Assembly: GCA_937967705.1 (NCBI GenBank)
Contig: CALCJG010000381.1
Location: 1-10,629, forward strand
DNA: 10,629 nt
From: an uncultured Spirochaetia bacterium
GTDB lineage: Bacteria; Spirochaetota; UBA4802; JAGODF01
Reading direction: 5' to 3'
Shown here: piece by piece, positions 4,530 through 10,117 of the stretch
How positions within the stretch are numbered: position 1 is the first letter of the stretch
How the letters are laid out: every line of letters begins with the position of its first letter
Made by a program: the position numbers and the translations under genes
The notes under the pieces: generated by a model
Databases searched by the model: none
What the model was told of the DNA's origin: nothing
Seen by the model: only the letters and a program-made list of their open reading frames with translations

Positions 4530-4964
4530 AAGGGGCAAAGTTTTCATTCGGGGGAGGAGAGGGCAAATAAAAAAAGAAAAAATGTTTGAGGTACTGTATC
4601 GCCGTTGTTTCATCCAAGCCCCTGCAATTGATTGTGGTCTGCCGGCAGGAGTGCCGCTGCCTGCGGGACTCGGATAGGGCGGGGACTTATCTTCCCCTGC
4701 CGGGGATTGTGGGGATTTGTTCCTAGGTAGGAACTTACCCTGCAGGAAGGGTGCAGGGCGGCACCCCTCCTGCACCTCCCCGCGCCCTCCTCAGTCGCCG
4801 GAGGGGCTGGGTCGCTCGAAACTCGCCGCAGTCACTCCGCTTCGCTCCGTTTGGTGCAGCTCAAACAGTCGAGCTATAAGGTATCCGCCTGGCGGCGGAT
4901 GGTTTAAGGGTCGGGTTGCAATGTAAAAACATTGTGATCCCTCTTTTTATATGTGTGGGTGGTG

Positions 4965-4991
4965 GGGAATCTTTATTGCATAAAGAATCCC
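4965..4991. repeat. 12-bp stem-loop with TGC loop
   Basis: The arms are GGGAATCTTTAT and ATAAAGAATCCC, pairing at 11 of 12 positions around a three-base loop. It lies four bases before the 22-bp palindrome and about 85 bases upstream of the small gene at 5076, so it could be in that gene's leader. Confidence 0.6.
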
Positions 4992-4995
4992 TGTC

Positions 4996-5017
4996 GGGGT
5001 TTTCGGCCGAAAACCCC
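4996..5017. repeat. Perfect 22-bp palindrome
   Basis: GGGGTTTTCGG followed at once by CCGAAAACCCC gives dyad symmetry with no spacer. It could be a binding site for a dimeric regulator or a cruciform/hairpin. It has no following T tract. Confidence 0.65.
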
Positions 5018-5075
5018 CGGCCTTTCCGGGGTTCCATTGGAGGGGCTGGGGAATTGAAGCGGAGGAATACGTAAG

Positions 5076-5261
5076 ATGTCCGGCCGGGAGGGGAAGTGGG
5101 AGCGCATCTTTAACGGCGATCCCGAGCGATGCCCCGACTGCGATATGGCCATGCTTTACTCGGTCACCTGCGGCAGCCGGGCGGAAAAGGCCTGGCGCGC
5201 CCTGAGGCGGGATTTCCGGCTTTGCCGGGGATATTTCCGCCCCCGGGGGAGGGGGCCCTGA
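5076..5261 (+). CDS. Small hypothetical protein with CPDC motif
   Basis: A 61-residue frame starting MSGREGKWERIF, preceded by GGAGG ten bases upstream. It has four Cys: CPDC near residues 19-22, then C32 and C50. It is rich in Arg toward the C-terminus and ends GYFRPRGRGP. The CPDC pair could be half of a metal site, but the second pair is not spaced like a classic zinc ribbon. I do not recognise the family. It stands alone between the inverted-repeat cluster and the direct-repeat element. Reality as a gene rests on the ribosome site and ordinary protein composition only. It may be a degraded piece of a larger protein. Confidence 0.4.
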   Translation: MSGREGKWERIFNGDPERCPDCDMAMLYSVTCGSRAEKAWRALRRDFRLCRGYFRPRGRGP

Positions 5262-5569
5262 TCCTCATTTTTTGGCATATCGGCAGTAAAAAATGTTGAA
5301 ATCTTTCTGTTAATTTTGTAGCCTTTGGCAAAAGGGTCAGAGAGTTCTTTGTGCCGGGGCTGGGGATTGGCCGCGTTTTTACCGGCGGCAAAATTTAAGG
5401 CCCCCTGATAAGGGTTTTTTTACCTTAGAGGGGTTAACTTTCAGAGTGGTGAGATTCTCATAGAAGCCTTCTGTCGAGGAACTTTTTGCAGGGAAGGGAT
5501 GATAACTTCCTATATATTTAAATAAACATCGTTTTGTTTTTGACAATAACATACAAGCACTTTACTTTT
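5262..5569. other. Intergenic region containing the left direct repeat
   Basis: No gene is supported here. A weak GAGG/CCTC stem followed by ATTTTTT at about 5249-5275 might terminate the small gene. A GCCGC/GCGGC inverted repeat lies at 5370-5389, directly before the 121-bp repeat. From 5512 onward the DNA abruptly becomes AT-rich. Confidence 0.5.
5391..5511 (+). repeat. 121-bp direct repeat, left copy
   Basis: Starts at AAATTTAAGG and ends at AACTTCCT. It matches 6676-6796 at a constant offset of 1285 with only three differences (T/A at 5409, A/G at 5422, A/G at 5502) and no gaps. Identity ends abruptly on both sides. Near its left end is CCCT-GATA-AGGG followed by seven T (5403-5421), which looks like an intrinsic terminator core. 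Read on the minus strand, the repeat is open in one frame through both copies. It probably belongs to an interspersed family. Confidence 0.9.
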
Positions 5570-6412
5570 CTAAATGTTGAAAGAATATATGGCTGAGATA
5601 AGAATTCCGTAAAATAAAATCCTCTTATTTTGCTCTTTCAAGCTGTTTAAACGTTGGTATCTCCCCCCCAACGATAATGTCACGCTTGTGTCGGGAATTA
5701 CATAGGCCATATTCATTGACAGACTTCCACCAAGATATTTATCTGTTTGTTCTTCTTTCTTGCTTTCTTGTATTCTTGATATCCCAGTAATATCAACTGT
5801 AACCCTGCTCACCTGGTATATTCCTGTTATTGATGAAATCAAATAAAGGTTCTTGGCGATGTTTATTGTAGCACTCAATCCTACTCCAGGTCCTGTTGAG
5901 TAAAAATTAATATCAAATTCTCCAATCAATATCTGTGATGACATACTCAGCGGAAAATAATAATATGTGCCTTCCCCATGTTCATCAAGATATTTCCAAC
6001 CAAAGAAAACACCAAAAACGCTACTTAAGCTATAACTTATTGAAATGTCAGTTTCAAGTCTTTCTATTTTATTTATGCTTTTAAACATATGTATTTCAGT
6101 GCCAGTTGGATTATTATAATAATTAGACTTGCACTTCCATCCGGCACCGTATGAAAAAACCCCCCCTATTGATATTCTTTCGGAAAGATTGAGTGCCAAT
6201 AGTCCTCCGTATACAAATTCGGCCGGTTCTATCATTTCAAAATTGTTATCCCAGGTAGTGCTTTCATTTTCACCCATAAGCTGAGTTTTAAATCCCGGTT
6301 CGTACCAGGCATACCATACATTTGCGCCTGCTTTGATACTTATAGCATATGTATCCTCGAGCATTAACAGAAACACGAGGGTTGAAATTAGTAATATTAG
6401 ATATTTTTTCAT
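5570..6412 (-). CDS. Predicted outer-membrane beta-barrel protein
   Basis: A 280-residue protein with a clear signal peptide: MKKYLILLISTLVFLLMLED, then a likely signal peptidase I site after TYA (about residue 23). The mature part is a series of alternating polar/hydrophobic strands rich in Tyr, Gly and Ser (for example SISIGG-like turns, YYYFPLSMSSQILIGEFDIN, LSLGGRYQRL), typical of small 8-12-strand barrels. It ends ILISAIYSFNI; the terminal residue is Ile, not the usual Phe. The ribosome site AAGAGG lies four bases before the ATG. The gene is strikingly AT-rich compared with flanking genes and lies between the two 121-bp repeats, so it is a good candidate for recent acquisition. No family is recognised; a surface or porin-like role is inferred from architecture only. 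Confidence 0.75.
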   Translation of the reverse strand: MKKYLILLISTLVFLLMLEDTYAISIKAGANVWYAWYEPGFKTQLMGENESTTWDNNFEMIEPAEFVYGGLLALNLSERISIGGVFSYGAGWKCKSNYYNNPTGTEIHMFKSINKIERLETDISISYSLSSVFGVFFGWKYLDEHGEGTYYYFPLSMSSQILIGEFDINFYSTGPGVGLSATINIAKNLYLISSITGIYQVSRVTVDITGISRIQESKKEEQTDKYLGGSLSMNMAYVIPDTSVTLSLGGRYQRLNSLKEQNKRILFYGILISAIYSFNI

Positions 6413-6528
6413 GTAACCTCTTTAATTTCCTTTTATTAGCCTGATCCATAGTAAATAATGAAAACCATTCGACCGTTTTTTATATCCCAAGCTGTTATTA
6501 ATATTCTCAAATCTGTGATTTAGCATGA

Positions 6529-6693
6529 TGCTGGTTGCAGATTACTATAGAAATCATTCATACACCAGAAGAAAATATTGAAAAAGCATATAAAAATCTC
6601 AAAGACATTCTTTCTCAGGAACTGCTTTTTAAAATAAAAGAACAATCATCAGACTTTTTTGAAAAACTAGTCATTAAATTTAAGGCCCCCTGA
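6529..6693 (+). pseudogene. Mrr-type restriction endonuclease fragment
   Basis: A frame opening after the TGA at 6526-6528 translates to ITIEIIHTPEENIEKAYKNL followed by KDILSQELLFKIKEQSSDFF and EKLVI. This resembles the linker and start of the catalytic domain in Mrr restriction endonucleases. There a TPEE..EKAY helix precedes a segment of the form ELL.KIK..SP.FFEKLVVDLL..MGYGG, recalled from family knowledge. The match breaks directly after EKLVI: the next codons, KFKAP and then stop, come from the 121-bp repeat that begins at 6676. The N-terminal winged-helix part and the whole nuclease core are missing, so this is a dead fragment truncated at both ends. No start codon or ribosome site is present. 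It is AT-rich like the adjacent barrel gene, suggesting both arrived together from a foreign, restriction-carrying segment. Confidence 0.6.
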
Positions 6694-6796
6694 AAAGGGT
6701 TTTTTTGCCTTAGAGGGGTTAACTTTCAGAGTGGTGAGATTCTCATAGAAGCCTTCTGTCGAGGAACTTTTTGCAGGGAAGGGATGGTAACTTCCT
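6676..6796 (+). repeat. 121-bp direct repeat, right copy
   Basis: Same orientation as 5391-5511, three mismatches. Its left edge coincides with the point where the Mrr-like reading frame stops resembling its family, which supports 6676 as a true element boundary. It holds CCCT-GAAA-AGGG plus T7 (6688-6706), enclosed by AAGGC/GCCTT. After 6796 the sequence is unrelated to the left copy's flank. Confidence 0.9.
6688..6706 (+). terminator. Terminator-like hairpin inside the right repeat
   Basis: A short CCCT/AGGG stem with a GAAA tetraloop is followed by seven T. The stem is only four base pairs, so it may be weak. The equivalent in the left copy is at 5403-5421 with a GATA loop. The surrounding bases closely match the strong terminator at 10096-10117. 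Confidence 0.4.
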
Positions 6797-6845
6797 GCAT
6801 GTTCCCTTTTGGCAGGTGTTGTGGGACAGCTGTGAATTTTATTCA

Positions 6846-6879
6846 GGTACCATAATCCCCCTCTCTGAGGGTGGTTACC
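6846..6879 (+). promoter_or_regulatory. Leader hairpin abutting the EFR1 ribosome site
   Basis: The lower stem pairs GGTACCA (6846-6852) with TGGTTACC (6872-6879, one bulged T). The upper stem pairs CCCTC (6859-6863) with GAGGG (6867-6871) around TCT. About 12 base pairs form in all, and the structure ends one base before AGGAG (6881-6885). Its position suits control of translation or mRNA stability, but no known riboswitch or binding motif is recognised. Confidence 0.45.
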
Positions 6880-6891
6880 CAGGAGAATATC

Positions 6892-7701
6892 ATGAAGAAA
6901 AAAGTCGCTATACTCTGTTTTTCCCCCACCAGCACCACCAGAACCGTGTGCGGCGCCATAGCCTCCGGGATGGGGACGGATGAGCCGCTGATGCTGGACA
7001 TGACCCTCCCGGAGGCCCGGAGGGAGATCGTTGATAAGAAAGGCGCCCTGCTGGATGCGGTGGATCATGTCGTTGTGGGGGCGCCGGTCTATGCCGGCAA
7101 GCTGCCGATTCCGGTCATCGAGTGCCTGGGAGCCCTGAAGGGGGACGGGAAGAACGCCGCGGCCGTCGTCGTTTACGGCAACCGGGATTACGGCGTGGCG
7201 CTGCACAGCATGGCGGAAATCCTTTCCCGGAACGGTTTCAGCGTCATCGCCGCCGGCGCTTTTATCGCCCAGCACTCCTATTCCGATCTGATCCCGGTGG
7301 CCATGGGACGGCCCGATCCTTCGGACCTGGAGAAGGCACGGCAGTTCGGGGCACGGATGGCCGGGGCAGTAAAACCTCTGAGCCTGGAGGAGATCCCCCT
7401 GCAATGGGACCGGGCGTCCCGGTCGAAGAGTTATACCGCCCTCAACCCCCTCTACAGGGCGAAGAAATGCATACAATGCGGAAAGTGCGCCCGGGCCTGT
7501 CCGGCCGGCATCATAGCCCCCGCTTCGGGGGCGTACCTGAAAGGCATCGATAGGAAGGCGTGCGTCGGCTGCATGGCCTGCGTGAAAAGCTGTCAGACAG
7601 GGGCCAGATATCTGAAAGTAAACCCCCTCGTTCAGATGGTTATCAACAGAATTTTAGGTGAGGCCTCCCGGAAGAGGAAAGAGCCGACGGTTGTAGTCTG
7701 A
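6892..7701 (+). CDS. EFR1-family flavodoxin-ferredoxin fusion protein
   Basis: A 269-residue cytoplasmic redox protein. The N-terminal flavodoxin-like domain (about 1-160) has VAILCFSPTSTTRTV, whose SPTSTTR loop fits the FMN-phosphate site, with GAPVYAGK (63-70) and VVYGNRDYG (94-101) at positions expected to cradle the flavin. The C-terminal part is a bacterial-type two-cluster ferredoxin: C193-x2-C196-x2-C199-x3-C203-P and C224-x2-C227-x2-C230-x3-C234. This arrangement is that of EFR1-family proteins, common in anaerobes and thought to pass electrons between flavin and iron-sulfur carriers; the partner here is unknown. The start at 6892 has AGGAG six bases upstream. An in-frame GTG or ATG farther up (6871) would lie inside a leader hairpin and lacks a ribosome site. 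No terminator follows. Confidence 0.9.
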   Translation: MKKKVAILCFSPTSTTRTVCGAIASGMGTDEPLMLDMTLPEARREIVDKKGALLDAVDHVVVGAPVYAGKLPIPVIECLGALKGDGKNAAAVVVYGNRDYGVALHSMAEILSRNGFSVIAAGAFIAQHSYSDLIPVAMGRPDPSDLEKARQFGARMAGAVKPLSLEEIPLQWDRASRSKSYTALNPLYRAKKCIQCGKCARACPAGIIAPASGAYLKGIDRKACVGCMACVKSCQTGARYLKVNPLVQMVINRILGEASRKRKEPTVVV

Positions 7702-7775
7702 CAAAGATTGCCATCGGATGTTCCCCCGGGGCATTTGTTCGGATGGAAAAAGCAACAAGTTTGGGGTGATAAAAA

Positions 7776-8267
7776 ATGATTTTTCGGTTTACTAAAAATT
7801 CACAGACAAAGCTGAAAACAGGGAGATTGCCCGCTGTTGAGGAATCGTCGAACCTGCTTTATGAATGGTATGTGAATGTGTTTTTCTGTATGCGCCACAA
7901 GTATTTTATCACAACAAATGCCGCTACGTTGTTTACAGTGATCATTTATGGAGCCGGGATAAAAGATGATACCGATTATTTCGGTCATATTTTTAATGCA
8001 GTGAGACAGCAAATGCAGGATGTTTCATTGGATTTAATTTTCCAGCGTATGATTTCTTCAAAAATATCAGAAATAATCTATGCCAATACAATAAATAGAT
8101 CAATTCTCGGGTCAATGAATGATATGACTGCAATGGCAAAGCTGCTTATTCAAGAGGATCAACTGCCGCCTTTTGAAATAAGCAAGTTTATAAATGACAC
8201 GCCGTTTAAATATATTGGGATGCATGACCCATTGGATTGCCTGGTAAAATACAAGAAATATGATTAA
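7776..8267 (+). CDS. DUF6933-like hypothetical protein
   Basis: A 163-residue protein starting MIFRFTKNSQTKLKTGRLPA, with WYVNVFFCMRHKYFITTNAATLFTV next and LGSMNDMTAMAKLLI in the middle. The order of features (an N-terminal FTKKLQ.K-like segment, a W-x-x-N strand, an N-x-A-T-L-F segment, and a late N-x-x-LGSMND segment) recalls DUF6933 proteins, whose function is unknown to me. No signal peptide, membrane segment or catalytic motif is visible. The ribosome site GGGGTGAT lies about five to ten bases before the ATG. Base composition is more AT-rich than both neighbours, which suggests a separate origin. The DUF assignment is from memory of the family pattern and should be treated as moderate. 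Confidence 0.7.
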   Translation: MIFRFTKNSQTKLKTGRLPAVEESSNLLYEWYVNVFFCMRHKYFITTNAATLFTVIIYGAGIKDDTDYFGHIFNAVRQQMQDVSLDLIFQRMISSKISEIIYANTINRSILGSMNDMTAMAKLLIQEDQLPPFEISKFINDTPFKYIGMHDPLDCLVKYKKYD

Positions 8268-8346
8268 GGCATTAAAGGCATCAGAAGTGACTTTTCCGCT
8301 TGGGTGTCGGTGATGCTGCAGATCGCTGACGGAGAGGTGAGTTGAT

Positions 8347-8835
8347 ATGAACTGTACCTTAGAGCCCATGGCACCGGAGCATGAAACCGACGTCATGGAT
8401 ATCTTCAATTACTACTGCGAAAACACCTTCAATGCCTATCCAGAGGGAAGAATGCCCACTCAGTTGTACCTGCGGTTTCTGGACATCGCCAAGGCTTATC
8501 CCGCCTTCGTGGTGAAAGGGGGCGCAGAAATCATCGGCTTCTGTCTGCTGAGGCCCTATAATCCCTTTCCGGTGTTTAAAGAAACCGCGGAGATCAGTTA
8601 CTTCCTTAAGGACGGTCATACAGGGAAGGGGATCGGCAGACAGGTCCTGTCGAAGCTGGAAGAGGAAGCGGGAAAAGCCGGTATCAAAAGGCTTCTGGCG
8701 GACATATCCTCGGAAAACCGGGGGAGCATCGATTTTCATTTAAAGAACGGTTTTACTCAATGCGGAACCTTCAAAAATGTGGGGAAGAAATTCGATAAGA
8801 GCTTCGATGTGGTATGGATGGAGAAGGAATTGTAA
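8347..8835 (+). CDS. GNAT-family N-acetyltransferase
   Basis: A 162-residue GNAT enzyme that would transfer an acetyl group from acetyl-CoA to an amine. The central strand AEISYFLKDGH is followed by the pyrophosphate-binding loop GHTGKGIGRQVLSKL (90-104), fitting the Q/R-x-x-G-x-G/A signature. The late motif SSENRGSIDFHLKNGF (121-136) is the usual N-x-x-S-x-x-F/L-H...GF element seen in phosphinothricin-acetyltransferase-like GNATs. The N-terminus YCENTFNAYPEG also fits that group. The ribosome site GGAGAGGTGAG ends five bases before the ATG. The length is normal. The substrate is not predictable. It stands 79 bases after the DUF6933-like gene and may be co-transcribed with it. Confidence 0.9.
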   Translation: MNCTLEPMAPEHETDVMDIFNYYCENTFNAYPEGRMPTQLYLRFLDIAKAYPAFVVKGGAEIIGFCLLRPYNPFPVFKETAEISYFLKDGHTGKGIGRQVLSKLEEEAGKAGIKRLLADISSENRGSIDFHLKNGFTQCGTFKNVGKKFDKSFDVVWMEKEL

Positions 8836-8939: not shown

Positions 8940-9575
8940 ATGCTGGAAAAGCTGGCCTGCTCGCTGGGAAGGAATGACGAACAGCCTAACATCGATCTCG
9001 CTGTTGAGCTGGTTGAAGCGAATGACAAAAAAGGAATCCGGGAGATCGTCTCCGGTCTCGGTGATGTCTCGGAAAAGGTCAACAACGACTGCATCAAGGT
9101 TCTCTACGAGATAGGGGAACGCAAACCGGCTTTGATAGCGGACTATGTTTCCGACTTCATCGAACTGCTGCAGTCGAAGAACAACCGGCTCGTATGGGGC
9201 GCCATGACGGCCCTTTCGCATATCGCGGCATTGAAGGCAAAGGAGATCTTCGATCGCTGGGATATCGTGTACAACGCCTACCGGAAGGGAAGCGTCATCA
9301 CCGTCGATACAAGCATCAGCGTATTTGCCGGTCTCGTCAGGGCGGACAGGGGGTATGGGGAAACGGTATTCCCGGTCCTCCTGAAGCATCTCGAAGAATG
9401 CCGGCCCAAAGAGGTGGGACAGCATTCGGAACGCGCCTTCGTCTGCATCCATAAAGACAACGCCGAACCCTTCAAGAGGATCCTGACCGGACGCCTCAGC
9501 GAACTCACGGTGGCCCAGAGGAAGCGGGTGGACAGGATACTGAAGAAGGTGGAAGAGGGGGAGTTTGTTGAATAG
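8940..9575 (+). CDS. HEAT-like repeat protein
   Basis: A 211-residue, almost entirely helical protein. It shows successive helix pairs: ELVEANDKKGIREIVSGLGD, VNNDCIKVLYEIGERKP, YVSDFIELLQSKNNRLVWGA, MTALSHIAALKAKEIF, and later FPVLLKHLEECRPK. The repeated Asn-Leu/Val-Gly helix turns and the N-R-L-V-W-G-A-M-T-A-L unit are characteristic of HEAT/adaptin-like scaffolds that bind other proteins. No enzyme motif, signal peptide or membrane segment is visible. The start has GGAGG five bases upstream. It lies 104 bases beyond the acetyltransferase gene. The function is likely protein-protein interaction, with the partner unknown. Confidence 0.8.
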   Translation: MLEKLACSLGRNDEQPNIDLAVELVEANDKKGIREIVSGLGDVSEKVNNDCIKVLYEIGERKPALIADYVSDFIELLQSKNNRLVWGAMTALSHIAALKAKEIFDRWDIVYNAYRKGSVITVDTSISVFAGLVRADRGYGETVFPVLLKHLEECRPKEVGQHSERAFVCIHKDNAEPFKRILTGRLSELTVAQRKRVDRILKKVEEGEFVE

Positions 9576-10061: not shown

Positions 10062-10095
10062 GTCCGGGCGTCGACCGCCGGCGTTCGAGAAAAGG

Positions 10096-10117
10096 CCCCC
10101 TGTAAAGGGGGTTTTTT
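10096..10117 (+). terminator. Intrinsic terminator after the exported protein gene
   Basis: A CCCCC/GGGGG stem with a TGTAAA loop is followed directly by six T. It lies 35 bases after the TGA at 10059-10061. The flanking AAGG...TTTTTTGC closely matches the terminator core in the 121-bp repeats. Confidence 0.85.

Follow-up and report, generated by a model that had tools for sequence, protein, structure and literature searches.

The arrangement described here, AT-rich DNA between two direct copies of a short sequence, recalls several known systems. In E. coli, plasmid DNA delivered by conjugation was cut and then integrated by single crossing-over; a duplication PCR product was obtained in 56 of 60 clones, and 14 sequenced clones carried duplications of 109–950 bp beside the inserted plasmid DNA (PMC3240628). 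The view put forward by those authors is that a trimmed, re-circularised molecule underwent single crossing-over, and the same paper also treats homology-facilitated illegitimate recombination, which leaves deletions (PMC3240628). The TIMEs of Pseudomonas measure 262 bp, with 38-bp inverted repeats and 5-bp target duplications, and in the TIME-COMP arrangements presented with them two such elements bracket cargo without transposition genes (PMC4133298). In the genomic islands of Bordetella petrii, low-GC DNA lies between direct repeats that can recombine to form a circle (PMC2717098). Finally, integron cassettes in the spirochaete genus Treponema are gene-sized pieces of DNA between repeats (PMC3607928).

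The locus studied here shares something with each of these systems and differs from each of them. With the E. coli case it has in common foreign DNA accompanied by direct host duplications and an arbitrary joint between foreign and host DNA; that case, however, was a plasmid experiment with identical homology, whereas this locus is old and natural, its copies are 2.5% diverged, and circle and parent would have to be inferred (PMC3240628). Homology-facilitated illegitimate recombination was considered for this locus and set aside as a misfit, since deletions would be expected from the account given in PMC3240628. The likeness to TIME-COMP lies in two short repeats around cargo without transposition genes, and among the cases described one has its repeats in the same orientation and one has GC below that of its plasmid; unlike TIMEs, the repeat here (R) has no inverted ends, and the match outside the unit is 3 bp long (PMC4133298). 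Low-GC DNA between direct repeats is shared with the Bordetella petrii islands, but most of those, as described, have an integrase and a tRNA gene site, neither of which was found here (PMC2717098). In contrast to the Treponema cassettes, the present unit is single, carries no attC cores, and no integrase was found (PMC3607928).

The features of the locus are collected in Table 1; the window is the whole stretch of DNA that was analysed (10,629 nt). A pair of ungapped, same-strand repeats with three mismatches had been proposed by a sequence-only reading, and this pair was confirmed. The two copies, R1 and R2, are identical at 97.5% of positions and differ at repeat positions 19 (T/A), 32 (A/G), and 112 (A/G), from which a longest mismatch-free block of 79 bp follows. 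When R1 was queried against its own window with blastn, R2 was recovered at E = 4e-49, the runner-up was a match of 25 nt at E = 0.004, and there was no third copy in the window. The likeness of R1 and R2 is not due to chance. R2 lies upstream of the flavodoxin/ferredoxin gene and ends 95 bp before its ATG.

Table 1. Features of the repeat-bracketed unit and its immediate neighbours (positions in the window)
Feature	Position	Strand	Description
Left flanking ORF	5076..5261	+	61 aa; 68% GC; host side
R1, repeat copy	5391..5511	+	121 bp; 42% GC; bounds the unit on the left; 118/121 to R2
Weak terminator-like hairpin with T run	5397..5418	+	Start of R1; same motif in R2, 6682–6703
AT-rich interior	5512..6675	.	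1,164 bp; 33.3% GC; change points 5499 and 6683 between flanking ORFs
Beta-barrel protein gene	5570..6412	-	Intact; 280 aa; signal-like start; 36% GC; GC3 0.33
Mrr-type restriction endonuclease remnant	6544..6681	+	N-terminal part and catalytic core missing
R2, repeat copy	6676..6796	+	121 bp; 44% GC; bounds the unit on the right
Right flanking gene, flavodoxin-like/4Fe-4S protein	6892..7701	+	61% GC; host side

Structure within R was weak at most. Folded as RNA with a few flanking bases, R1 gave z-scores of −1.37 (+ strand) and 0.04 (− strand), and folded as DNA it gave −1.57 (− strand) and −1.99 (+ strand). A scan of the window against Rfam at E ≤ 1 returned no matches, R included. A consensus scan counted eight terminator-like sites in 5000–7000, compared with 2.3 ± 1.9 in shuffled sequences; such an excess does not demonstrate a function. 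One terminator-like motif farther away, at 10092–10116, showed 84% identity over its 25 nt to R positions 7–31.

The AT-rich interior that had been claimed was borne out by measurement (Table 1). Outside the unit, GC was 61.7% over the whole left side and 53.6% over the whole right side, and the left-side genes together with the flavodoxin gene had 61–68% GC and GC3 of 0.76–0.82. The description of both outer flanks as GC-rich holds only in part: the gene at 7776–8267 has 36% GC, and the genes to its right range from 49% to 63%. A sharp switch at the inner repeat edges had also been described, and this was borne out with a reservation. Within 5262–6891, between the flanking ORFs, the maximum-likelihood AT-rich segment was 5499–6683, its edges 13 and 8 bases off the ends of the interior; however, the left edge is loose, since the limits within 3 log units were 5387–5901 for the start and 6659–6775 for the end, the latter being narrower. 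Over 4.4–7.7 kb, the best AT-rich segment was 5267–6922, which begins where the left flanking gene ends and closes shortly inside the next gene, because the intergenic flanks and the repeats are AT-richer than the genes. The GC content was 46% and 48% in the outer intergenic flanks and 42% and 44% in the repeats, compared with 21% and 32% in the non-coding parts of the interior and 26% in the Mrr remnant. As the GC of R is close to that of the host intergenic flanks and unlike that of the non-coding interior, R looks like host-type DNA by composition, and the interior, by its AT-richness, is foreign-looking.

The barrel protein that had been read from the letters is supported by its AlphaFold2 model, which has about ten strands and a mean pLDDT of 86. 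The fold search returned 161 chains at E ≤ 0.001, and among the best 50 of these the TM score was at most 0.66 and the identity 6–14%. The structure matches were numerous barrels with low identity, which makes the fold clear but gives no ground for claiming a function; the product of the interior gene is taken to be an outer-membrane protein. It had no Pfam match, and the TDE1717 outer membrane barrel family of NCBIfam was reached only below threshold (15 bits, cut-off 135). Ten homologous proteins were found at E ≤ 1e-3 from 2,489 candidates, the window's own protein counted; the barrel protein aligns with its homologues over its full length; of the ten, P0009 and P0010 stop short. A single match of the ten carried an organism name (Spirochaetota bacterium, 54% identity). 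In viral contigs, four stretches fitted the pattern of the barrel protein and none was confirmed, and in 297 genomes of another phylum (Pseudodesulfovibrio anchor genome) its profile gave one match at E = 3.6e-5. Six contigs were listed for the barrel protein, four for the flavodoxin protein, and three for the HEAT protein (8940–9575); the barrel, being listed on more contigs than its neighbours, may have additional contexts beyond the present locus.

The interior also contains the Mrr fragment, and here the claim is upheld both by the PADLOC profile mREase_IV, covered from 144 to 183 of 317 (E = 2.1e-6), and by likeness to an Mrr protein. Upon comparing the remnant with reading frames of at least 200 aa from 12 Mrr-bearing loci (L017–L028), we found 49% identity to L017 over residues 7–45 (39 aa, E = 2e-9) and 45% identity to L018 (E = 7e-5), with weak matches to L027 (E = 0.07) and L026 (E = 0.27) and none at E ≤ 1 to the other eight. 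L017 and L018 continue into MGYGG and the catalytic part, which the window remnant lacks, and the 141 residues of open frame that precede the aligned part in L017 are absent as well. As both the upstream residues and the catalytic part are missing, the gene is broken on both sides. The homology stops at the edge of R2, reaching its first codon, and with the catalytic core gone, the joint ignores the gene. The fragment had no match among solved structures at E ≤ 10, and in Pfam and NCBIfam only sub-threshold matches with unrelated names were obtained.

The interpretation of the unit as a composite mobile element, one of the two alternatives offered by the sequence-only reading, found no support. 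The best inverted end match of R scored 14, which was equalled by 800 of 2,000 shuffles, so that terminal inverted repeats are lacking, and the attC core consensus sequences, GTTRRRY and RYYYAAC, were absent from either strand of both copies with 30 bp of flank. The match of the target-site type measured 3 bp (GCA) at the outer edges of the unit, 1 bp at those of R1, and 0 at those of R2, and 3 bp are shared by 1.9% of random position pairs. No transposase, integrase, or recombinase was detected by Pfam among the 10 window proteins, counted without ORFs cut by the window ends, in agreement with the earlier statement that a transposase is lacking. The barrel gene is the only interior ORF of at least 60 aa, and thus no integrase was found there; possibly one was once present and later deleted. 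No tRNA or tmRNA attachment site was found, as ARAGORN gave 0 such genes in the window.

To explain these observations, we tentatively favour a single recombination event that added the foreign DNA and, via a single crossover with a circle, duplicated 121 bp of host intergenic DNA. We give this reading a probability of about 0.42; the odds for it and for its rivals are judgements and were not computed. The circle that we infer would be a short host-homologous segment, R, joined to foreign DNA, with an AT-rich relative as the probable donor. One RecA-type crossover between the circle and the chromosome, at a native R with the 61-aa ORF to its left and the flavodoxin gene to its right, would leave the foreign DNA between two R copies, with host DNA on either side. 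The point within the broken Mrr gene at which the foreign end was fused to R would be arbitrary, and recombination between the two copies would remove the unit again, one R remaining.

Since a single crossover leaves two direct copies around an insert, the observed anatomy of host R, foreign DNA, and host R is the expected product. In line with this, the direct copies flank DNA of foreign composition, the GC of R is host-like, the Mrr homology breaks off at R2 without regard to the gene, and the barrel gene is full length relative to its homologues; the E. coli clones provide an experimental parallel (PMC3240628). The three mismatches could be allelic differences between donor and recipient or have arisen by later drift. 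On the other side, R was not seen beside AT-rich DNA elsewhere in the collections searched, as a circle donor would demand, and no relative in which the site is vacant turned up there; the change point in composition is loose on the left, and a RecA crossover across 121 bp at 97.5% identity is inefficient. Because the Mrr gene is broken on its far side too, some of the patchwork would be older or younger than the insertion event. The search for mobility genes in the unit found none, and most likely the unit is the scar of ordinary recombination and not a working mobile element; the event is of an ordinary kind. If a single crossover did occur, the locus is a natural example of foreign DNA entering without dedicated machinery, the duplicated host segment is its signature, and similar scars could be sought systematically.

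A long target duplication that needs no circle is, in our judgement, a somewhat unlikely source of the same anatomy. In that case, foreign DNA would have entered at a break or by template switching, and two copies would have been made of 121 bp of single-copy host DNA: after copying R, the polymerase would have moved to a foreign fragment and then gone back to where R begins, perhaps via AAATTT, which could be part of Mrr and of R alike. The host-like composition of R, its occurrence in no other place in the collections searched, and the arbitrary ends of the foreign fragment all agree with this route. The Mrr alignment also enters R2 by one codon, so that R2 may begin with a few bases of Mrr origin that served as a short microhomology. 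However, the literature searched held no bacterial precedent of such length, and AAATTT within AT-rich DNA carries little information.

Alternatively, R could belong to a host family of interspersed intergenic repeats, and an R-flanked island from elsewhere in the population could have moved in by recombination between R copies; we regard this as unlikely. Capture by recombination within such a family had been suggested by the sequence-only reading. The part of that suggestion that stands is foreign-looking DNA between host-like copies, with Mrr ending at the repeat; a convincing second site of R is what it lacks. The geometry, an identity of 97.5% instead of 100%, and the 84% likeness of the motif at 10092–10116 to the start of R over 25 nt speak for exchange within a family. 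What weighs against it is the lack of a third copy in the window or in any collection searched. R1 had no match in 50,697 phage and 72,556 plasmid records (blastn, E ≤ 1e-5), and the region 5200–6900 had none in the phage and plasmid records at E ≤ 0.01 (distant blastn). Exact patterns of R were absent from viral contigs (38-mer and 19-mer) and from a set of 84,980 species represented by one genome each (37-mer). Among 395 genomes of another phylum (Pseudodesulfovibrio anchor), R1 gave one match of 32 nt, with at most two first-look candidates scored per genome in the 21 rows listed. This match was rejected as a second R site and ascribed to chance; it lies inside a coding gene of 440 aa, by eye presumably a CNNM/CorC-like protein, and the surrounding DNA is single there. 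So far, R has been seen at this locus alone across the phage, plasmid, viral, and species-genome collections, the kind of result that the sequence-only reading named as counting against mobility. The best flavodoxin match in genome contigs was 36%, so that no close relative seems present, and the searches for R therefore say little about the host itself. If R were a dispersed family, it would mark an undescribed gene-capture system, probably in a lineage of spirochaetes to which nothing closely related and sequenced occurs in the collections searched.

We consider an assembly chimera quite improbable. In this case, a repeat common to two genomes of a metagenome would have led the assembler to loop in the foreign segment. 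Both joints lie exactly at the repeat, and some metagenome assemblers use k-mers shorter than the longest identical block of 79 bp; the window, which may be a metagenome record, was also unmatched by pattern in genome and viral contigs. Nevertheless, R1 and R2 differ at three sites and retain distinct flanks, and the barrel, flavodoxin, and HEAT proteins are each listed on several contigs, the longest of 93,508 bases in all three cases, which may or may not be one contig.

We see only a slim chance that R forms the ends of a non-autonomous repeat family not yet described, with neither inverted ends nor attC structure, that captures AT-rich genes and carries them from member to member of its lineage through a novel trans-acting recombinase. 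Slimmer still is the chance of a non-autonomous composite transposon of the TIME-COMP type, with R as a miniature element whose ends a transposase from another locus would recognise. Low-GC cargo between direct copies, the missing transposase, and the GCA match would suit it, and the two TIMEs of TIME-COMP2 do have the same orientation (PMC4133298); against it, R has no terminal inverted repeats and is 121 bp long, compared with 262 bp for the TIMEs of that source, and an outer match of 3 bp occurs in 1.9% of random pairs. An integron-type gene cassette with R as its attC site is hardly credible even though unit size, repeat length, direct orientation, and the chromosomal integrons of Treponema would agree with it, as the GTTRRRY/RYYYAAC cores are missing, no integrase occurs among the proteins scanned, there is only one unit, and Treponema is the sole spirochaete clade reported with integrons in PMC3607928.

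The neighbouring genes give some indication of the host. The named homologues of the flavodoxin protein were Spirochaetes first, followed by Bipolaricaulota and Desulfobacteraceae, and those of the HEAT protein were Brevinematales first, then Spirochaetes, Treponema twice, and Spirochaetota, besides Methanomethylovorans, Fibromonadales, and Clostridium. Including that of the barrel, the named homologues appear to lean to Spirochaetota, most of the listed proteins carrying no name. In genome contigs, 13 loci were confirmed from 40 candidate stretches for the flavodoxin protein, with the above 36% as the best confirmed match, and in the large protein collection its best identity, leaving out its own entry, was about 60% in the 120 proteins listed out of 565. 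Family searches for DUF6933 and FlaA from the Pseudodesulfovibrio anchor found neither in the 1 genome scanned nor in any of 14 controls.

The DUF6933 gene at 7776–8267 (36% GC, GC3 0.39) is a second AT-rich gene amid a GC-rich setting. No direct repeats of at least 12 nt bracket it in 7600–8450, indicating that AT-rich DNA hereabouts is independent of R. The roughly 400 bp between annotated genes at 4640–5060 contain short inverted motifs and look repeat-like by eye. At the left end of the window, the C-terminal part of a glycosyltransferase (2–543) is split over two reading frames, the first with a stop at 341–343, which reflects either a genuine frameshift or an error in the sequence.
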